Shown in pieces: positions 3,668 to 45,077 of a DNA stretch of 64,000 nucleotides. The translations under genes and the position numbers were made by a program. The notes under the pieces are model-generated. The model was not told the DNA's origin. It was given only the letters and a program-made list of their open reading frames with translations, and did not search any database. Source of the stretch: Actinospica robiniae DSM 44927 (GTDB lineage: Bacteria > Actinomycetota > Actinomycetes > Streptomycetales > Catenulisporaceae). Where the stretch lies: NCBI RefSeq assembly GCF_000504285.1, contig NZ_KI632511.1, positions 4,585,372 through 4,649,371 on the forward strand, read 5' to 3'. The number at the start of each line of letters is the position of its first letter. The stretch's first letter is position 1.

Positions 3668-5485
3668 ATGAACCGGCTCCACCGTCTTCGCGCCCCGCTC
3701 GCCCTGGCGGCCTGCGCGGGCCTGCTCGCAGCCTGCTCGTCCGGGGGCGGGAAAACCTCGTCGTCCCAGCTGGTCTACACGTCCGTGGACGCGACGAACC
3801 CGATCACGGCGGGCGCGCCGATGAATCCGTTCAACGCGTCCGGCAACTACTTCCCCAGCTACGACACCATGCAGCTGGGCTTCGACAAACAGAATCCGAA
3901 GGATCCCGACGACTTCTTCCCCGGCCTCGCGGCGAGCTGGACGATCAGTTCCACCGGGATCACGGTGAAGCTGCAGCCGGGCGCGAAGTGGTCCGACGGA
4001 ACGCCGGTGACCCCGGCCGACATCAAGCTCTCCATGGCCATCGCCCTGACTCAGGGCAGTGCGACCGTCGGCGCCGGCTTCCTGACGCAGGGCCTTGACG
4101 TCGGCTCGGTCACCGAGGTCGACGCCTCCACGGTGCAGATCGACCAGGCCGCCGGGGGCACGAACCTGAACTTCGCCCGGCTGGTGCTCGGGCAGTACAT
4201 CGTGCCGAGCTCGGTCTACGGCTCGCTGGTGCCCTCGAGCATCTGGAGCACCATCGACGATCTGGCCTCTGCCGACTCGGCCACCGCGTCGGCCGCGGTG
4301 ACGAAGCTCAACGCGATCGGCAAGGCCGTCTCGGCCTTCTCGCCGGCCAAGGACGTCTCGGCCGGCCCGTTCGTCATCGCGCGGGTCAACCCGGGCTCGG
4401 CCGAACTGACCCGCAACCCGGACTTCTACGCGCTCTCCAAGATCGTGCCGAGCGAGGTGATCCTGCGGCACTTCAGCGGGAACTCCGACATCTGGGGCTA
4501 TATGAAGAGCGGCGAGCTGGACTCGGCGCCCTACACCTCGATGCCGACGAACATCCTCGACTCGGTGCTCAAGACCGGTTACACCCGCGTCGATTCGGCC
4601 TCGTTCGTCGACGCGGCGATCGCCTTCAACGAGAGTGACGCCCCCTACGGTCAGGCCGCGGTGCGCCAGGCGCTGGCCTACGTGATCGACCGGCAAGCGG
4701 TGACGAAGGTCGGCGAGCCGGTGGGCGGCACCGCCGCGAGCGATCTGACCGGCATGGTCGAGTCGGCGACGAAGCAGTGGCTCACGCCTTCGCAGATCTC
4801 GTCACTGAACCCTTACTCACCGGATCAGACCAAGGCGGCGTCGCTGCTGACCGGAGCGGGCTTCAAGAAGTCCGGTTCGCAGTGGCTGCTGCCGGACGGC
4901 ACGCCGTGGAAGATCACGCTTCAGACGGTCAGCGGCTTCAGCGACTGGAACGCCGCGGCCACAGTCGTCTCCTCCGAGCTCGACTCCTTCGGGATTCCGA
5001 CCCAGGTGAAGCTGACCTCTGACTTCGCCACCTACAAGACCGACATGGCCGCGGGCAAGTACGCGGTCGGGTTCTGGCTGATCGCGCTCGGCCCTTCGGC
5101 TTCGGCGGCCTACCAGCGCCTCTACGGCCAGGACGACGGCTACACCGCGAACGCCAACGGCACCGTGACGCACGCGGACGGCGGCGGCAACTGGCAGCAC
5201 ACCCCGACCAGCTACACCGTCAACGGCACCGCCATCGACCCGGGTCTGCTGACCGCGCAGCTGGCCACGCTCTCCGCCACGGCACAGCAGACGCAGGTGC
5301 AGCAGCTGGCGCTCGCCACGAACGAGCAGATGCCGGTGATCCCGATCTGGGATTACACCAACGTCAACTTCACCTACGACAAGCGCTTCACCGACTTCCC
5401 GGGCGCGAGCTCGCCAGACATCAATGGTCTGATGTACAACCAGCCGGGCGTGTGGATGATGCAGGGCTACGTCAAGGCCAAGTAG
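3668..5485 (+). CDS. Dipeptide/oligopeptide ABC transporter substrate-binding lipoprotein
   Basis: This is a 605-aa family 5 (DppA/OppA-like) solute-binding protein. Residues 1-23 form a lipoprotein signal peptide ending in LLAAC, so Cys23 would be lipidated and the protein anchored outside the membrane. The body has the family pattern of a lobe-I domain (LAASWTISSTGITVKLQPGA broken as LAASWTISS and VKLQPGAKWSDGTPVT) and a later VRQALAYVIDRQAV segment. It starts a five-gene operon with two permeases and two ATPases. Family 5 proteins bind peptides but also some oligosaccharides. The neighbourhood (murQ, murE, D-aminopeptidase, amino-sugar kinase) suggests muropeptides or cell-wall peptides; that is inference. 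Confidence 0.88.
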   Translation: MNRLHRLRAPLALAACAGLLAACSSGGGKTSSSQLVYTSVDATNPITAGAPMNPFNASGNYFPSYDTMQLGFDKQNPKDPDDFFPGLAASWTISSTGITVKLQPGAKWSDGTPVTPADIKLSMAIALTQGSATVGAGFLTQGLDVGSVTEVDASTVQIDQAAGGTNLNFARLVLGQYIVPSSVYGSLVPSSIWSTIDDLASADSATASAAVTKLNAIGKAVSAFSPAKDVSAGPFVIARVNPGSAELTRNPDFYALSKIVPSEVILRHFSGNSDIWGYMKSGELDSAPYTSMPTNILDSVLKTGYTRVDSASFVDAAIAFNESDAPYGQAAVRQALAYVIDRQAVTKVGEPVGGTAASDLTGMVESATKQWLTPSQISSLNPYSPDQTKAASLLTGAGFKKSGSQWLLPDGTPWKITLQTVSGFSDWNAAATVVSSELDSFGIPTQVKLTSDFATYKTDMAAGKYAVGFWLIALGPSASAAYQRLYGQDDGYTANANGTVTHADGGGNWQHTPTSYTVNGTAIDPGLLTAQLATLSATAQQTQVQQLALATNEQMPVIPIWDYTNVNFTYDKRFTDFPGASSPDINGLMYNQPGVWMMQGYVKAK

Positions 5486-35981: not shown

Positions 35982-37649
35982 TCAGGCCGCCGCCCCGAGC
36001 GCGGGCAGCTCCGGCACCGCGGCGAGCAGGGCCCGGGTATACGGGTCCTGCGCTCGCGCGAGCTCGGCCGCGGGCAGGATCTCGACCACCCGTCCGGCCT
36101 CCATCACCGCGATCCGGTCACTCACCTGGCGCACCACGGCCAGGTCGTGCGCGATGAACACCAGGGTGAGCTCGAACTCGTCGCGCAGCTCCCGCAGCAG
36201 CCTGACCACCTGCGCCTGGGTGGTCACGTCGAGCGCGGAGACCGGCTCGTCGCACACCACCAGCCGCGGCCGCAGGATCAGGGCCCTGGCGATCGCGGCG
36301 CGCTGCCGCTGCCCGCCGGAGAGCTGGTGCGGATAACGGTGGTAGAGCCCGCGGTCGAGGCCGACCCGCTCGAGGATCTCGCCGACCGACGCGGTCAGCC
36401 GCTCGCGGTCCTTCTCCCCCTGCACCCGCAGCGGCTCCGCGATCGACTCGCCGACGCTGCGCCGGGGGTTGAGCGAGGAGGCCGGGTCCTGGAAGATCAG
36501 CTGCATCTCGCGGCGGTGCTGACGCAGGGCCCTGCCGCGCCAGGAGTCGAGCGGGCGGCCGTCGAACTCGATCGTGCCCGCGGTCGGCTGCTGCAGCCGG
36601 ACGAGCGAGCGGCCGAGCGTGGTCTTGCCGCTGCCGCTCTCCCCCACGATGCCGAGCGACTCGCCCTCGCGCAGCTCCAGGTCGACGCCCGCCACCGCGC
36701 GGGTCTGCGCCGCCCCGCGCTTGGCCGGGAAGGTCACCTCCAGCCCGCGCACGCGCACCAGCGGCCGCCGGGCCGCGTCGGCCGGCTCGCGCTGCGGCAG
36801 TTCGGCGTCCAGCCGGGGGATCGCGGCGAGCAGCGCCTGCGTGTACGGGTGCTGCGGCGTGGTCAGGACCTCGCCGACCGGCCCGCGTTCGACCTGCTCG
36901 CCGGACTTGAGCACGAGCACCTCGTCCACGTTGCCGGCCACCACGGCCAGGTCGTGGCTGATCAGGATCATGCTCATGCCGGTCTCGCGGCGCAGCTCGG
37001 AGAGCAGTTCGAGGATCTGCGCCTGCACTGTGGCGTCGAGCGCGGTGGTCGGCTCGTCGGCCACCAGCACGCGCGGCTCGAGTGCGATCGCCATGGCGAT
37101 CAGGGCCCGCTGCCGCATGCCGCCGGAGAACTCGTGCGGGTACGCGCGGTACTTGCCCGCCGCGTCGATGCCCACCTTCTCCAGCGCCTCGGCCGCCCGC
37201 GCCGCGGCCTGCTTGCGGCCCTCGCCGAAGTGCAGCCGGCGCACCGTCGCGATCTGCTCGCCGACCCGGCGGTACGGGTCGAGGCTGGTCAGCGGCTCCT
37301 GGAAGATCATGGCCAGTTCGCGGCCGCGGATCCGGCGCAGCGTGCGCTCGTCCGCGGAGTTCACCTCGATCTCGTCCTCGACCTCGCCCCCGGCCGAACG
37401 GGGACGCACCAGGATCCGGCCGCCGACCCGCGCCGCCGTGCCGCGGTGCAGACCGAGCAGAGCCAGCGCCGCGGCCGACTTGCCCGAGCCGGATTCGCCG
37501 ACCAGACCGAGCGCCTGACCCTGGGCCAGCTCGAAGCTGAGGCCGGCCAGGGCGGTCGCCTCGGGTCGGCCGGGGCCGCCGGGGAAGGCCACCCGCAGGT
37601 CCTCGACCCGAAGCGGCGCCGTCCCGGAGGTGTGCGGGTTCTGCGTCAT
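35982..37649 (-). CDS. Fused dual ATP-binding protein of a dipeptide-type ABC importer
   Basis: The 555-aa protein contains two complete ABC ATPases, equivalent to DppD and DppF joined in one chain. The first half has [18 protein letters not shown] and [12 protein letters not shown]; the second has [18 protein letters not shown] and [11 protein letters not shown]. The Cys-rich extensions seen in the unfused ATPases of the first importer are missing. It starts at the ATG at 37649, overlapping the permease stop as ATGA. It energises the two permeases encoded upstream on this strand. The frame is open 343 codons further 5', but those are a permease shadow. Confidence 0.92.
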
Positions 37650-38635
37650 GCCAGCCTCACTCGGGGGTCGAGCACCGCGTAGAGCACGTCGGCGACGGCG
37701 TTCGCGGCGATGATCAGGGTCGCGGCCAGCAACGTGATCCCGGTGACCACGGGCAGGTCCACGTTGGTCGCCGAGTCCACCATGAGCTTGCCCAGGCCCG
37801 GCAGGCCGAACAGGGACTCGGTGAACACGGCGCCGGCCAGCACCCCGCCGATGTCCACGGCGGCCATGGTGGCGAGCGTGGGCAGCGCGCCGCGCACCGC
37901 GTGCCGTAGCACCACCCGGCGCTCGCTGTAGCCGTACGCGCGCAGGGTCCTGATATGGTCCTGGCCGAGCGACTCGAGCACCCCGGCCCGGGTCAGCCGG
38001 AGGTAGCCGCCGGCCGTGACCAGCGCGATGGCGAGCCAGGGCAGCAGCAGGTTCTGGAACCACTGCCCCGGGTTCTGGGTGAGCGGCACGTACGTCGGGA
38101 ACGGCAGCACCTGGAACCAGACGCAGAACACGAGCAGCAGCAGCAGGGCCAGCACGAACAGCGGCGTGGCGCTGAAGGTCATCGCCACGGTCGTGGTCAC
38201 CCGGTCGCGCAGGCCGTTCGGGCGCAGCGCCGCGAACAGGCCGAAGCCGATGCCGACAGCGAGCCAGATCACCGAGGCGCCGACGGCCAGCGAGAGGTCC
38301 ACCGGCAGGCGGTCCAGCAGCATCTGGGTGACCGGCTCGTTGCTCTGGAACGAGAAGCCGAGACAGGGCGCGGAGCACCAGGTGGTGCCCACCCCGTTGT
38401 CGTAGCGGTGCCCGACGAACAGGGAGCTGATGAAGGTCCAGAACTGCGCGACGATCGAGCGGTCCAGCCCCATCGAGTGGCGCACCTGGGCGAGTTCGCC
38501 CGCGTCGCAGCGCTTGCCGCAGGCGAGCACGGCCGGGTCGCCCGGCATCAGGTAGAAGAGCCCGTAGACGAGGGCGGAGAGCACGAGCAGCACCGCGAGC
38601 GCCGAGAGCAGGCGGCGGAACAGGAAGACGATCAC
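37646..38635 (-). CDS. ABC transporter permease, DppB type (second importer)
   Basis: The 329-aa permease starts with FLFRRLLSALAVLLVLSALV and YLMPGDPAV, the DppB opening. An unusually long periplasmic loop (about 35-115) has four Cys (CGKRC and TTWCSAPC), which could form disulfides. The EAA loop is RTLRAYGYSERRVVLRHAV. The GTG at 38635 overlaps the stop of the DppC-type gene as GTGA, and its own stop overlaps the ATPase start as ATGA. Gene order is binding protein, DppC, DppB, fused ATPase, different from the first importer. Confidence 0.9.
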   Translation of the reverse strand: MIVFLFRRLLSALAVLLVLSALVYGLFYLMPGDPAVLACGKRCDAGELAQVRHSMGLDRSIVAQFWTFISSLFVGHRYDNGVGTTWCSAPCLGFSFQSNEPVTQMLLDRLPVDLSLAVGASVIWLAVGIGFGLFAALRPNGLRDRVTTTVAMTFSATPLFVLALLLLLVFCVWFQVLPFPTYVPLTQNPGQWFQNLLLPWLAIALVTAGGYLRLTRAGVLESLGQDHIRTLRAYGYSERRVVLRHAVRGALPTLATMAAVDIGGVLAGAVFTESLFGLPGLGKLMVDSATNVDLPVVTGITLLAATLIIAANAVADVLYAVLDPRVRLA

Positions 38636-39582
38636 CGCGTCTCGCTCCTCGGGTCGGCCGCCCTGCGTACCGCTTCACCCAGACCGGTGAAGATCAGCAC
38701 GCACAGCAGCAGGGTCACGGCCGGCACAAGCACGTAGGTCGGGTCGGCCTGGAACCAGTCGGCGGCGCTCGAGAGCATCTGCCCCCAGCTCGGTGTGGGC
38801 GGCTGCACGCCCAGGCCGAGGAAGGAGAGGCCCGCCTCGGCCACCATGTTCCCCGGCAGCGCCAGCGCCGTGTAGGTGGCCACCGGCGCGGCCAGGCCGG
38901 GCAGGATCTCGCGCAGGGCGATCCGCCAGGTGCTCGCGCCGTAGAGCCGGGCGGCCGAGACGAAGTCGCGCTCGCGCAGCACCAGCGTCTCGGCACGCAC
39001 GATCCGGGCGGTGGCCGCCCAGCCGAGGCCGGCCAGGATCAGGCACAGCAGCAGCGGCCGCGAGAAGGTCTGCGGCACCACCGCCAGCAGGGCGATCGCG
39101 AAGAAGAGGTAGGGCAGGGCCAGGGCCAGGTCGGTGAACCGGCTCAGCACCCCGTCGATCCACCGGTTGCCCAGTCCCGCGGCCAGCCCGATGAGCAGGC
39201 CCAGCAGCAGCTGTCCGAGCGTGGCCCCGGCCGCCACCATGAGCGAGATCCGGGCGCCGTAGAGCAGCCGGGCGAACACGTCGCGCCCGGTGGCCGGCTC
39301 CACCCCGAGCCAGTGCGAGGAGCTGATCCCGCCGAAGGAGCCGAGCGGGCTGCCGCCGGCGGCCGAGTTCAGCAGGGTGTCGTGGTAGGTGTTCGGATCC
39401 TGACCTTCGAGCCCGGAGAGCACCGGGGCCAGGATCGCGGCCAGGACGAGCAGGAGGACGAGCACGAGCGCGGTCTTGCCGCCCGGCCTGGCCCACAGGC
39501 GGGCCAGGAGCACGGGCGGCTTGACCGTCTCGTCCGCCGACGGAGCCGGGGCGTCCGTCGGCGCGGCGATCAGGCTGGACAT
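38632..39582 (-). CDS. ABC transporter permease, DppC type (second importer)
   Basis: This 316-aa inner-membrane permease has an N-terminal cytoplasmic stretch, a first helix (TALVLVLLLVLAAILAPVLS), a periplasmic loop ending in SSHWLGVEPATGRDVFARLL, and the EAA loop FVSAARLYGASTWRIALRE. About six helices are predicted by eye. The start at 39582 is 30 bp after the binding-protein stop, so the genes form one operon. The next gene overlaps by 4 nt. Confidence 0.9.
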   Translation of the reverse strand: MSSLIAAPTDAPAPSADETVKPPVLLARLWARPGGKTALVLVLLLVLAAILAPVLSGLEGQDPNTYHDTLLNSAAGGSPLGSFGGISSSHWLGVEPATGRDVFARLLYGARISLMVAAGATLGQLLLGLLIGLAAGLGNRWIDGVLSRFTDLALALPYLFFAIALLAVVPQTFSRPLLLCLILAGLGWAATARIVRAETLVLRERDFVSAARLYGASTWRIALREILPGLAAPVATYTALALPGNMVAEAGLSFLGLGVQPPTPSWGQMLSSAADWFQADPTYVLVPAVTLLLCVLIFTGLGEAVRRAADPRSETR

Positions 39583-39612: not shown

Positions 39613-41307
39613 CTACTTGACCGAGACCGAGGAGATGTCGTACCAGCCGCGCCACTGGTCCACGTACGTGTTCTTCACCGCGGTGCCGTGCAGCACGACG
39701 TCGTTCGCGGTGTAGAGCGGCACGGTCAGCGCGAGCTTGCCGATCTGGGCGTCGAGGTCGCCCCAGGCCTGCTGCGCCTTGGTGTAGTCGGTGATCTGGT
39801 TGATCTGGTCGATCTGCGCCTCGACCGCCTTGTCGTCGTACTGGGCGAGGTTGAAGTTGCCGCCGCCCTGCACGATGTCCCGGCCGTCGAAGATCGGGGT
39901 GAGGAACGGCGCGCCGCTCGGCCAGTCCGCGCCCCAGCTGAACAGGCTCAGCGCCGGCTCGGTGGTCGTGTTGGTCACGACGCTCTGGTAGTTCGAGTCG
40001 TCGATCGGGTCCAGCTTCAGGGTGATCCCGGCCTTGGCGTACGCCTGCTGCAGCGCGGCCGCGTCCTGCGGGTCGTTGTTGTCGTACGCCAGCTGGACGG
40101 TCAGCCCGTTCGGGTAGCCGGCCTGGGCCAGCAGCTGCTTGGCCTTGGCCGGGTCGCCGGTGGCACCGGCCGGGAAGTAGTCGTACGGGTGGTACGCGGC
40201 GCCGATGCTCGGCGGGGTGAACGTGGTCAGCGCGGTGGCCAGCTGGCTGCCGCCCTGGGCGTTGACCAGCGCGGTGCGGTCCACGGCGTAGGAGAAGGCC
40301 TCGCGCACCGACTGGTTGTCGAACGGCGCCTTCTTGGTGTTGAACGCGAGGTAGGTCGTGTCCGGGAAGTTGCCGCTGGTCAGCCGGGACTTGAGGGCCG
40401 GCTGCGCGGAGGACCTGGCCAGGGTGGCGGCGTCCACGTCGGTGTCGGTGGTGATCGCGTCGGCGTCCTGGCCGACCGAGGCGGCGAGCCGCTGGTCGAT
40501 CACCGTGGACGAGAGCCCGAGGCTGATGTCGATGGTGTCGGGGCAGGCCAGCCGCTGGGTGTCGGTGGTCTTGCTCCAGTAGGTGTTGCGGGTCAGGACC
40601 AGGTTCTTGCCCTTGTTGAAGGTCTTGATGGTGTACGGGCCGGAGGAGACCGGGGCGGCGTTGTAGTTCTTGCCGGTGTCCGAGGCCTTGGGCACCGGGG
40701 CGAACTGGGTCTCCGCGGCCAGGTACGGGAAGTCGCCCTCGGACTTGCGCAGGTGGAAGACGATGGTGTTCGTGTCCGGGGTGGCGATCGAGGCCAGGTC
40801 CGGGTTCGAGCCGTACGGGCCCTGGTAGGCCGAGCCGCCGATCAGCCAGTCGCGCAGGTAGGGCGGGCTGCCGGCGAGCTGCGAGGAGAAGGAGCGCTCG
40901 ATGCCGTACTTGATGTCGGCCGTGGTGATCGGCTGCCCGTTCGCGTACTTCAGCCCGGATTTCAGGTGGTAGGTCCAGACGGTCGCGTTGTCGCTGGACT
41001 CGCCGGTGTCGGTGGCGAGGTCCGGCACCACGGTCCGGCCGTTGTCGCCGGCCACCGAGTCGCGGGTGGTCAGGGTGCGGAAGAGCAGGCGCGGGATGGC
41101 GCCGCCGCCGGAGGTGTAGAGCTCGGCCGGGTCCAGGCCGGTGTCCTCGGTGGCCTGGTCGAGCACCTGGAGGGTGCCGCCGGCGCAGGTGGCCGCGTCG
41201 AAAGCGGCGGCGGAGGCGGTGGAGCTCGAACTGCCGCAGGCGGCGGCGAGCGAACCGATCAACGCGGCGATTCCGGTGAAAGCGGCGAGCCGTATTCGTC
41301 GGGACAC
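39613..41307 (-). CDS. Dipeptide/oligopeptide-type ABC substrate-binding lipoprotein (second importer)
   Basis: A 564-aa family 5 solute-binding protein with a lipoprotein signal peptide ending LAAAC (Cys24). Family segments are PDLATDTGESSDNATVWTYHL (in part), VREAFSYAVDRTALV and KAKQLLAQAGYPNG. It starts the operon of permeases and fused ATPase that follows at lower coordinates. Its mRNA has a long leader of about 297 nt that begins with a 28-codon ORF and contains a 9-bp hairpin. The substrate is unknown. The nearby secreted GH3 enzyme suggests sugars, and the CHAP enzyme suggests peptides. Confidence 0.9.
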   Translation of the reverse strand: MSRRIRLAAFTGIAALIGSLAAACGSSSSTASAAAFDAATCAGGTLQVLDQATEDTGLDPAELYTSGGGAIPRLLFRTLTTRDSVAGDNGRTVVPDLATDTGESSDNATVWTYHLKSGLKYANGQPITTADIKYGIERSFSSQLAGSPPYLRDWLIGGSAYQGPYGSNPDLASIATPDTNTIVFHLRKSEGDFPYLAAETQFAPVPKASDTGKNYNAAPVSSGPYTIKTFNKGKNLVLTRNTYWSKTTDTQRLACPDTIDISLGLSSTVIDQRLAASVGQDADAITTDTDVDAATLARSSAQPALKSRLTSGNFPDTTYLAFNTKKAPFDNQSVREAFSYAVDRTALVNAQGGSQLATALTTFTPPSIGAAYHPYDYFPAGATGDPAKAKQLLAQAGYPNGLTVQLAYDNNDPQDAAALQQAYAKAGITLKLDPIDDSNYQSVVTNTTTEPALSLFSWGADWPSGAPFLTPIFDGRDIVQGGGNFNLAQYDDKAVEAQIDQINQITDYTKAQQAWGDLDAQIGKLALTVPLYTANDVVLHGTAVKNTYVDQWRGWYDISSVSVK

Positions 41308-41470: not shown

Positions 41471-41494
41471 CGGGACGGCCGGAAAGCCGTCCCG
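41471..41494 (-). other. Leader hairpin of the second importer
   Basis: CGGGACGGC (41471-41479) and GCCGTCCCG (41486-41494) form a perfect 9-bp stem with a 6-nt loop. It lies 24 nt after the stop of the leader ORF and 164 nt before the binding-protein gene. No U-tract follows, so it may be a Rho-type or translational control element. Confidence 0.5.
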
Positions 41495-41517
41495 TCTGCG
41501 GCGGAGCTAGCGGGACA

Positions 41518-41604
41518 TCAACACAGGATGTCGGCGACGCTGTGCGCGCTCATACCGATCAGAACGACCTCATGGGTCGTCGGTCGGGGCGCGCTCAGGT
41601 TCAT
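41518..41604 (-). CDS. Leaderless leader peptide (28 aa) upstream of the second importer
   Basis: The ORF begins MNLSAPRPTTHEVVLIG and ends ADILC followed by TGA. Its ATG lies exactly 7 nt after a TAGAAT -10 box, so transcription is predicted to start at the ATG itself. The last sense codon is TGT, an uncommon Cys codon at this GC content. No hydrophobic signal or enzyme motif is present. Short regulatory peptides ahead of ABC importer genes are known in actinomycetes, but this sequence is not one I recognise. Confidence 0.55.
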   Translation of the reverse strand: MNLSAPRPTTHEVVLIGMSAHSVADILC

Positions 41605-41611
41605 GGTGGTG

Positions 41612-41641
41612 ATTCTAAGAGCGGGCTGAGTACAGGGTCAA
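41612..41641 (-). promoter_or_regulatory. Promoter of the second importer operon
   Basis: On the minus strand TTGACC (complement of 41636-41641), an 18-nt spacer and TAGAAT (complement of 41612-41617) match the vegetative consensus at five of six positions in each box. The start point would be at the ATG of the leader peptide (41604). Confidence 0.75.
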
Positions 41642-41712: not shown

Positions 41713-44700
41713 TTACGGCAGGGCCCATTGCTGGTTGCTCGCGCCGCTGCAGGACCAGATCTCCAGTTGCGTGCCGGAGCCGCCGGATCCGGTGTCATCC
41801 AGGCACTTGCCCGACTGTGGGTTGACGAGTTCGCCGCTCGACAGCGGCTGCCAGTTCTGCGCGGCGGTGCCGTTGCAGGTGTAGAGATCGACCAGCGTGC
41901 CGTTGGCAGTGCCGGCGGCGACGACGTCGAGGCACTTCCCGAGCGCCTTGAGCGTGCCGTTCGGCTCAGCCGTCCAGCTCTGCGCGGTCGTGCCGTTGCA
42001 GGTGTAGACCTGGACCGGCGTGCCGTCCGCGCTGTTGTCGCTGCGCACATCGACGCAGAGCCCTGCGTAGCCGGTCACGGTGCCGGCCACCGCGGCCGGC
42101 GAGACCCACGACTGGTTGGAGGTGGCGCCGCAGGTCCAGATCTGTACCTGGGTGCCGGAGGCGCCGTAGCCGGTGTCGTCGAGGCACTTGCCGGACTGCG
42201 GGTTGAGCAGTTCGCCGTTGGACTGCGGTGTCCACACCTGGGCACCGGTGCCGTTGCACGTGTAGAGGTCGACCAGCGTGCCGTTGGCCGTACCGCCGCC
42301 GACGACGTCCAGGCATTTGCCGAGCGCCTGCACGGTGCCGTTGGCCTCCTCGGTCCATTGCTGGCCGTTGGTTCCGTTGCAGGTGTAGACCTCGACCTTG
42401 GTCGCGTCGGCGTTGCTGTCCGCGGCGATGTCGAGGCAGAGCCCTGTGTATCCGACCAGCGGTGTGGCAGCGATACCTCCGGTGGAGGCGACCACGGTCC
42501 AGGTGAACGTGGTGGAGGCCTGAGCGCCGTTACCGTCCTTGGCGGTGACGGTCACGGTGCTGGTGCCGGCGGTCGTCGGCGTGCCGGTGATGAGCCCGCT
42601 CGACGAGATCGACAGGCCGGAGGGCAGACCCGAAGCCGTGTACGTCGCGGTCTGCCCGGAGGTCGAGTCGCTCGCGGCGAGTTGCACGGACACGGCCGTG
42701 CCCGCCGAACCCTCCTGCGGGCCGGGGTTCGTCAGCGTGACCGGCTGCCCGAGCTGGGTCGAGGTCACCGAGAGCGTGCCGCTGAGCGGAAGCGAGCCGG
42801 TGGCGTCCGCGTCGCCGACGGAGATGCCGTAGCTGCCGGTGCTGGTCGCCCACGCGTTCGAGGACGTGTTCCAGTACTGCAGGTTCTGCTGCGCGAGCTG
42901 GAAGGTGACGGTCTGGCTGGCGCCGGCCGCGAGGTTGACGCGGGCGAAGCCCTCGAGCTGCCGTGGTGGCTGGCCGGAGGCGGACGGATCGGTGACATAC
43001 AGCTGCGCCACGTCAGCGCCCGCGCGTGAGCCGGTGTTGGTGACGGTGGCAGTCACCGTGGCGGTGCCGCCCGCGGTGAGCGTGCCGACGTGCAGGTTGC
43101 TGTAGGAGAAGGTGGTGTAGGAAAGGCCGTAGCCGAAGGGGAAGAGCGGCGTCAGACCCTTGGCGTCGTACCAGCGGTAGCCGACGTCCACGCCCTCGGA
43201 GTACTGGACGGTGCCGCCGCTGCCCGGCCACTCGGCCGTCGTGGAGGCCGGGACCTGGGAGAGCGAGGTCGGGAAGGTCACGGTCAGGTGGCCGGACGGG
43301 TTGTAGGAGCCGAACAGCACGTTGGCGATGGCCGTGCCGTCCTCCTGGCCCGGGTACCAGGCCTCGAGCACTCCCTTGACCGAGGAGAGCCACGGCATGG
43401 TGACCGCGGATCCGGTGTTGAGCACCACGACCGTGTTCGGGTTCGCCGCGGCGACAGCCGAGATCAGCGAGTTCTGGGCACTGGACAGGTCGATGCTGCT
43501 GAGGTCCGAGCCTTCCGACTCGAAGTCGCTGGCGAAGACCACCGCGACCTTCGCCGCGGCGGCTGCGGCCGCGGCCGAGGAGTTCGAGGTGCCGGCGTCG
43601 TAGGTGACCGTGGTCCCGCTCGGCGCGGCGGCGGTGATCCCCTGCAGCGGGGTGACCGTGCCGCTCGAATTCACCCCCGCGCTGCCGCCGCCGTCGCTCT
43701 GCGGGCTGGTGGACGCGTCGGCGCCGATGACCGCGATCGAGTTGTCGGCGGAACCGAGCGGGAGCACGCTGCCCGAGTCCTTGAGCAGGACGGTGCCCTC
43801 TTCGGCCAGCGACGTCGCAGCCGTCTGATCCGCGGTGTCCGTCGCAGCCTGCGCCGGGGAGCCCGAGGTCGGCTTATCGAAGAGCCCGTACGCGAACATC
43901 TGAGTGAGGGTCTGCGAGACCAGCGCGTTCAACGTGGCCTGGCTCACCGAGCCGGAGTTGACCGCGGACGTCAGGGCACTGCCGTAGTAGCCGTCGGAGC
44001 CCGGCATGTCCATGTTCAGGCCCGCGTTGGCCGACGCGGCGGTGGCGTGTGTGCCGCCCCAGTCCGAGGTGACGAACCCGGTGAAGCCGAACTGCTGGCG
44101 CAGCACGGTCGTCAGGAGATACGGGTTCTGACACGCGGCGGTGCCGTTGATGTAGCTGTAGGAGCACATCACCGAGGACGCGTCGCCCTGCTGCACCGCC
44201 GCCTGGAACGCGGGCAGGTAGATCTCCTGCTCGGCCTGGGTGCTCACGACCGCGTTGTCGCTCGAGGTGTTGCGGTTGGTCTCCTGGTTGTACACGGCGA
44301 AGTGCTTGACCTGCGCCATGACCCCGGTGGACTGCACGCCGCGGATGTCGGCCGAGCCGAGTTGCCCGTTGAGGTAGGGATCCTCGCCCACTGATTCGAA
44401 GGCACGGCCCCAGCGCGGGTCGCGCACGATGTTGATGGTGGGCCCGAGGTCGACGGTGGTGCCCTTGGCCGCCTGCTCGGCGCCGATCACCTGGCCGTAC
44501 TGCTGCTCGGCCGAGGTGTCCCAGGTCGCGGCGACCGAGACCGGCGCCAGCAGCTGGGTGACGTTGGACAGGCCGTCGCCGACGCCGGCCGGGCCGTCCT
44601 CCAGGTTCATCGCCGGGATGCACAGCGAGCCGATGGCCGGGATGAACCCGACGTAGCTCGACCCGCCCGATCCGGTGGCCAGCGCCACTTTCTGCGCGAG

Positions 44701-44946
44701 CGTCAGGTGCGACATCAGGGAGCTGACCCGCTGGGAGACGGGCGCCGAGGAGCCGACCCAGGGGCAGGAAGTGGACGAGGCCTCGGCGGTGCCGGTACCG
44801 CCGAACGCGGCGACCACGCCGGCCGAGAGGGTGACCAGGGCGACGCCGAGCGCCCGCCCGCGCAGGCGCGAGCGGGTGGTGGTGCGGGTGGTGGTGCGGT
44901 GACTCCGGGTCTTGCGGTGGGTGGGGGTGTTGCCAGGGTCGGGCAC
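41713..44946 (-). CDS. Secreted GH3 beta-glucosidase with Ig-like and two ricin-type lectin modules
   Basis: The 1077-aa exoenzyme has a basic N-terminus plus hydrophobic signal ([19 protein letters not shown]), a GH3 catalytic domain with KHFAVYNQE and nucleophile Asp295 ([11 protein letters not shown]), the C-terminal GH3 domain ([12 protein letters not shown]) and a fibronectin-like domain ([13 protein letters not shown]). A putative Ig domain ([20 protein letters not shown]) and two ricin-B/CBM13 lectin modules with QxW repeats (QQW, QVW, QSW; QSW, QNW, QQW) follow. It hydrolyses beta-linked oligosaccharides outside the cell. The GTG at 44946 has GGAGG 4 nt upstream; ATGs at 44967 and 44988 are alternatives. 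Confidence 0.9.
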
Positions 44947-45077
44947 GATGCCTCCATGCCGTGGCATGCCGGCAGTCCGGCACGCCACGTTGTCCGCGCG
45001 AACAAACCGTCATGCGGATGAAAGCGCGCCCCCACGCCGCCGTCAATTGGTCCAGGCCAATCGACGGACCGAGTGGA

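Follow-up and report, generated by a model that had tools for sequence, protein, structure and literature searches.

An ABC importer operon of the oligopeptide type in Actinospica robiniae is preceded by a short leader open reading frame (ORF) which, judging from comparison with related genomes, probably belongs to a cysteine-responsive leader whose sensor would be ribosome pausing at a single UGU codon; we put the probability of this reading at roughly 80%. Leaders of this general kind are known, and what is new is the single-UGU form together with the peptide importer as target. The window that we analyzed is a stretch of 64,000 nucleotides, in which the leader, on the minus strand, is flanked by a glycoside-hydrolase-like gene (41713-44988) and the importer operon and reads TTGACC-18-TAGAAT, 7 nt, the ATG at 41604, a 28-codon ORF, TGT-TGA, and a 9-bp hairpin. 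Its features, by position in the window, are as follows.

41641-41636, minus strand: -35 box TTGACC, from the promoter scan
41617-41612, minus strand: -10 box TAGAAT, with a spacer of 18 to the -35 box and 7 nt ahead of the ATG
41604-41518, minus strand: leader ORF of 28 codons, MNLSAPRPTTHEVVLIGMSAHSVADILC, from similarity to NF042937 and conservation upstream of orthologs
41521..41538, minus strand: codons of the motif V-A-D-I-x-C, kept in orthologous leaders
41521..41523, minus strand: invariant Cys codon TGT, the proposed regulatory codon
41514..41532, minus strand: possible small stem GACATC/GATGTC, weak, around the TGT and extending into the stop codon
41494-41471, minus strand: 9-bp G+C-rich hairpin 3' of the ORF, from folding against shuffles
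41344-41310, minus strand: hairpin holding the importer-gene Shine-Dalgarno sequence AGAAGGA, from folding against shuffles
39613..41307, minus strand: substrate-binding lipoprotein of the oligopeptide-type ABC importer, from sequence similarity
38632..39582, minus strand: importer permease of the DppC/OppC type, from sequence similarity
37646..38635, minus strand: importer permease of the DppB/OppB type, from sequence similarity
35982..37700 (gene start provisional), minus strand: two-domain importer ATPase, GsiA-like at a score below the cut-off, with gene order kept in relatives

The original prediction had described a promoter, TTGACC-18-TAGAAT, that starts the RNA exactly at an ATG, a 28-aa ORF that closes in TGT before the stop codon, and a leader of 297 nt. 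Both boxes and the 7-nt spacing are present, and since 7 nt separate the -10 box from the ATG at 41604, the RNA is predicted to start on the A of that codon. The ORF was found as described, and 297 nt agrees with the distance between its ATG and the GTG at 41307 with which the binding-protein gene begins. This promoter was the sole promoter-like match between 39000 and 42500, where shuffled sequences gave 0.1. The entire 64 kb was scanned on each strand for ORFs of 14-45 codons that have TGT in the last six codons and lie 5-8 nt downstream of a sigma-70-like promoter; no second ORF of the leader kind was found.

The leader is closely tied to the importer. When the binding protein was used to search 147 genomes of the order, it returned 72 orthologs (at least 580 bits), separated by a clear gap from the paralogs (at most 404 bits). 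Upstream DNA was read for all 72 orthologs and for 18 of the many paralogs, and the leader motif [VIL][ASC]D[ILVNM]xC was located near a stop codon at 72/72 ortholog loci versus 0/18 paralog loci. The original prediction, which linked the peptide to the importer, had named orthologous leaders without the ORF as the case that would speak against it; all 72 carry the ORF, and the link stands. Short ORFs are common in G+C-rich DNA, but the split between orthologs and paralogs, together with the presence of a single ORF of this kind in the window, makes a chance ORF beside a promoter barely credible: it is refuted by conservation. Among the Streptomyces-type genomes common to the class-wide search (described below) and the search of the order, all 19 with the leader have the ortholog, and none of the 20 listed genomes without the leader is among the 72 with it. 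(The labels Streptomyces-type, mycobacterial-type, and Catenulispora-type are presumptive and were assigned from kinship, genome size, and named loci.) No such leader precedes six orthologs from Actinomadura and Paractinoplanes; it is thus dispensable for the importer.

The binding protein is 88% identical in A. durhamensis and 83% identical in A. acidithermotolerans, and the operon order of binding protein, two permeases, and ATPase is kept in relatives. Its best solved relative is 2wok, oligopeptide-binding protein 2 of clavulanic acid biosynthesis (E 8e-85). A weak second match to such a binding protein (29% over 102 residues) was observed on the plus strand at about 4583-4864 of the window; this is probably what the original prediction had counted as the first importer, and the 64-kb ORF and promoter scan found no leader of the same kind near it.

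The promoter arrangement recurs in the orthologous leaders. A promoter score of at least 9/12 at the fixed place before the ATG was obtained for 61/72 leaders versus 0.2% of shuffled upstream stretches, the -35 box being TTGACA in 55 and TTGACC in 9, and the gap from the -10 box to the ATG was 6 or 7 nt in 66/72. Given this spacing and the near absence of a purine-rich Shine-Dalgarno-like tetramer, which was present in only 1/72 leaders, the leader ORF is predicted to be leaderless throughout the orthologs.

Against the NCBIfam models, the leader peptide matched a single one, NF042937 (Ms4533A family Cys-rich leader), with an E value of 4.4e-6 and 26.8 bits, below the 31-bit cut-off. No Pfam match was found for the peptide, and no Rfam match at the gathering score was found within the window. 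When genomes were searched with NF042937, the three Actinospica copies scored 24.6, 24.6, and 21.9, and orthologous leaders in Catenulispora-type and Streptomyces-type genomes scored above the cut-off. In the window's own family, exactly one match was found in 12/14 genomes (9 above the cut-off), versus 0/14 control genomes; the sister genus had a match in 9/10 genomes, all 9 above the cut-off. All 12 matches in the family lie directly upstream of the binding-protein ortholog and carry the same motif, and the two family genomes with no match (G001 and G012) have no binding-protein ortholog above paralog level. Homology to members that pass the cut-off is thus evident from motif and position, in 12/12 family genomes with a match and at 72/72 orthologs. 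That the Actinospica copy itself falls below the family cut-off, and that it has one Cys codon rather than a run, are among the points that we count against a cysteine leader.

Class-wide, NF042937 matched in 44/393 genomes. Fourteen of these 44 matches came without loci: four of them (three Streptomyces-type ones and that of the window itself) turned up again among the orthologs, and the other ten (nine mycobacterial-type and one other) were left out of locus inspection. Five Streptacidiphilus loci have a clearly related leader of the ..QVALLAMCAHSVSDNLCCR type, one of which gave no match when searched with NF042937. NF042938 was considered as a neighbouring leader family and dropped, as the model is Erm55, an rRNA methyltransferase.

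We next consider selection on the peptide. V, D, and C of the motif were present in 72/72 orthologous leaders and A in 70/72, with silent variation in the codons for V (GTG, GTC, and GTA) and I (ATC and ATT); one Cys follows the Asp in 62/72 leaders and two in 10. Over the last 20 codons of length-matched Streptomyces-type leaders, pS was 0.20 and pN 0.10 in a set of 31 leaders, and pS was 0.22 and pN 0.10 in a set of 29, whereas the N-terminal codons of the same sets gave pS 0.29 and pN 0.33 (31 leaders) and pS 0.44 and pN 0.40 (29 leaders). Since pN/pS is about 0.5 in the former region and pN is close to pS in the latter, it is the C-terminal end of the peptide that matters, and not its N-terminal part. 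In the core, the lower pS hints that the RNA is under an additional constraint. Peptide-level conservation could also reflect a small functional protein that is encoded upstream of the importer by chance, but the N-terminal part is unconstrained and one Cys codon has an invariant third base (see below), which protein function cannot explain; we regard this alternative as highly improbable.

The most constrained codon of all was the terminal Cys codon, which was TGT in 72/72 orthologous leaders, in 42/42 leaders of the first leader set (including 14/14 mycobacterial-type leaders), and in 5/5 Streptacidiphilus leaders. These counts come from related sequences and are not independent events, so the control is the nearby Cys codon in the same molecules, which was TGC in 51/52 cases among the orthologous peptides. 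Across ten genes of the window, Cys was encoded by TGC 44 times and by TGT 3 times. The same codon recurs in a second leader family, cis_reg_atten, which has 13 matches in the window's own genome (G000, L186-L198), 10 of them above the cut-off; all 13 have TGT as the last Cys codon, and the other Cys codons are TGC in 6/7. Ms4527A-type loci in relatives likewise had TGT as the last Cys codon in 10/10 usable cases out of 12 loci fetched, the two left out being L061, whose match starts at 1401 and not 1501, and L066, which has no terminal Cys in frame and TGC as its last Cys codon. Since this codon is common to two families that differ both in their cores and in the RNA that follows, decoding is a simpler reason for its fixation than RNA structure. 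We infer that UGU, read by wobble, would be decoded more slowly and be more sensitive to the supply of Cys-tRNA.

The leader also occurs before another target. At all 14 mycobacterial-type loci inspected, a leader ORF ending in VADIACCR or similar is followed by a lipoprotein gene, and the one such lipoprotein that we tested is a sulfate-binding protein (TIGR00971, 174.7 bits versus a cut-off of 155.5). One leader family thus precedes a sulfate importer in the mycobacterial type and a peptide importer in another group. Since sulfur is common to the two targets, cysteine is the most likely signal. This bears on the alternative of an arrest peptide that senses a cue other than Cys-tRNA, perhaps a small molecule or a peptide taken up from outside and lodged in the exit tunnel; UGU would then be the stall site and not the sensor. 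Invariant V, D, and C and purifying selection on the last 20 codons do exceed what a codon counter needs, but cysteine is the factor common to the sulfate and peptide importers, and the second leader family, with its other core, shares only the terminal UGU; we therefore consider a non-cysteine cue unlikely.

In the cysteine-responsive scheme that we favor, for which we infer the start site, translation, the cysteine signal, the direction of the switch, and the role of the nascent chain, the mRNA would start at the leader AUG and be loaded with ribosomes immediately, with no Shine-Dalgarno sequence. When Cys-tRNA is ample, the ribosome would pass the single UGU and leave at the stop codon, and importer expression would stay low. 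When Cys-tRNA is scarce, the ribosome would pause at UGU, which is wobble-read and rare in this genome, and the conserved nascent chain (ALIGVTxxxVADIx type) in the exit tunnel would probably strengthen the pause. By covering the end of the ORF and the adjoining RNA, the paused ribosome would relieve a block in the next 100-250 nt; the importer would then be made, and peptides would be taken up as a cysteine source. The attenuation or sensing device of the original prediction is plausible by homology to published mycobacterial systems. A leader ORF that merely delivers ribosomes or protects the RNA, through leaderless loading and re-initiation with no sensing, would agree with the promoter spacing, which predicts a leaderless ORF. 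The end of the ORF, however, lies 94-247 nt from the gene in 32/33 leaders, too far for coupling (the distance in the other, which has a run of N, is 476 nt), and the codon-level invariance of TGT would be left unexplained, making such a role very unlikely.

How a paused ribosome would act on the spacer is less clear-cut. The 9-bp hairpin of the original prediction is present as CGGGACGGC-TTTCCG-GCCGTCCCG, with 9 Watson-Crick pairs, albeit 23 nt past the stop codon rather than the 24 nt given. Folded with short flanks, it reached -20.4 kcal/mol (z -4.8, with 0/200 shuffles as stable), and no T run follows it. It did not prove to be a general part of the device: of two other Actinospica genomes, A. 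durhamensis has a similar hairpin with changed bases at the same place (GGGACGGCCCTCGCGTCGTCCC) and A. acidithermotolerans has a different one, and Catenulispora-type leaders have varied hairpins. Since the hairpin is not widely conserved, the output may lie at the level of transcription or of translation. The block in the spacer has about an even chance of being transcriptional, through a hairpin or Rho; a translational block, through an occluded Shine-Dalgarno sequence, is somewhat less likely, and some other mechanism less likely still. No intrinsic terminator with a T run, as expected of a classical attenuator, was found on the minus strand between 39000 and 42500; typical terminators are described as rare in Actinobacteria in excerpts of PMC2965389.

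Other structures were folded in the same region. The stem GACATC/GATGTC over the TGT was no better than shuffles (-7.5 kcal/mol, z -0.5), and the Shine-Dalgarno hairpin at 41344-41310 (-13.3 kcal/mol, z -2.8) belongs to the window and is not regular in relatives. This hairpin, the match to NF042937, and the wide conservation of the leader are additions to the original prediction. In Streptomyces-type leaders, a stem whose 5' arm starts in the stop codon (GACGC/GCGTC and variants) was present in 45/63 versus 11.1 in shuffles (maximum, 19), a count that is inflated by relatedness and that used 5-nt arms, set after a test with 6-nt arms had given 12/63 (shuffles, 1.9). One doubly changed pair (GACGT/ACGTC) was seen, and there was no T enrichment behind the stem. 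These sequence data are suggestive of a hairpin that Streptomyces-type leaders conserve across the stop codon and whose 5' arm would be covered by a ribosome at UGU. When 33 leaders were folded whole and minus the ORF, there was no consistent sign that a paused ribosome would expose the Shine-Dalgarno sequence; this is a crude model, and a translational switch is compatible with its result.

Two further candidates were rejected. A 1-2-3-4 attenuator built from GACATC, GATGTCCCG, CGGGAC, and GTCCCG was dropped because segment 2 would also lie under a ribosome pausing at UGU, in addition to its first stem being no better than shuffles and its second segment, GATGTCCCG, being altered in A. durhamensis. 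A Rho site had been considered from the C-over-G bias of the spacer, but this indication is weak, as the bias is also present upstream of 17/18 paralogs; the sole difference in that comparison was a pyrimidine content of 0.63 in leader spacers versus 0.57 in paralog upstream regions. Alignment A2 excludes L081, whose spacer contains a run of N.

In later papers, Canestrari 2020 (10.1111/mmi.14498) is the reference given for regulation by the supply of cysteine, in one case as translation attenuation. The closest known relatives of the present leader are those of the Ms4533A family (NF042937), which it resembles in its C-terminal motif, its leaderless-type promoter spacing, and its place before an importer gene; unlike that family, the Actinospica copy is below the cut-off, has one Cys, and precedes an oligopeptide-type importer, whereas mycobacterial-type loci have a lipoprotein gene (for a sulfate-binding protein at the one locus tested). 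With cis_reg_atten (NF042934) and Ms4527A (NF042936) it shares a short leader ORF and TGT as the last Cys codon, whereas their conserved core differs, being of the RRHVDLxRVSSAxC type. Leaderless polycysteine short ORFs have been described in mycobacteria, with cysteine attenuation suggested (Shell 2015, PMC4633059, in excerpt). Like those ORFs, which lie upstream of sulfur genes, the present one is short, predicted to be leaderless, and equipped with a C-terminal Cys codon, but it has a single Cys codon instead of a run of adjacent ones, a conserved peptide ahead of it, and a peptide importer as its target. Excerpts of Seliverstov 2005 (PMC1262725) describe, in Mycobacterium among others, candidate cys leader peptides that lack obvious terminators and for which Rho was proposed; these share with our leader a Cys codon near the stop, the lack of a conserved terminator, and a pyrimidine-rich spacer, and differ in having Cys-codon runs and preceding other operons. 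The classical ribosome-mediated attenuators of Actinobacteria, trp and ilvB1 (PMC1262725 and PMC13236596, both in excerpt), likewise place a leader peptide with regulatory codons ahead of an operon, whereas no T-run terminator was found here and the RNA structure is not conserved.

Beyond this locus, we tentatively suggest that actinobacterial cysteine leaders may be one-codon arrest peptides and not Cys-codon counters, in which a conserved nascent chain and an invariant UGU in place of UGC would confer hypersensitivity to Cys-tRNA. At least two families would obey the UGU rule, and one of them would act on sulfate importers in mycobacteria and on those for peptides in Streptomyces and its relatives. 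In the literature that we searched, which did not cover Canestrari 2020, we found no mention of a peptide importer as the target of a cysteine leader or of a fixed-UGU rule. If the cysteine-responsive reading is true, peptide uptake in Streptomyces and relatives would be under the control of cysteine supply with one codon as the sensor, and a function would be gained for many short ORFs annotated just as "putative leader peptide"; if the one-codon arrest-peptide reading is also true, peptide uptake would join the cysteine regulon of these bacteria. Because both leader families have a fixed UGU, replacing it with UGC would offer a sharp and cheap test of sensing.

Additional sequence elements were observed near the leader start. 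Upstream of the -35 box in L031 and L032, an inverted repeat, GTGAC-N6-GTCAC, was found by eye, and it resembles a CRP-type site. About 40-80 nt before the leader ATG, the Catenulispora-type leaders L004-L011 have a common stretch, GTAACGATC..GTCCATATACC, also read by eye, which is a candidate regulator site. Finally, in L004-L010 and most Streptomyces-type leaders, the mRNA 5' end AUGUC is complementary to the GAC-AU codons of the VADI motif, a match that is absent in Actinospica and Streptacidiphilus; where this match occurs, the 3' end of the ORF might mask the leaderless AUG with which the ORF begins.
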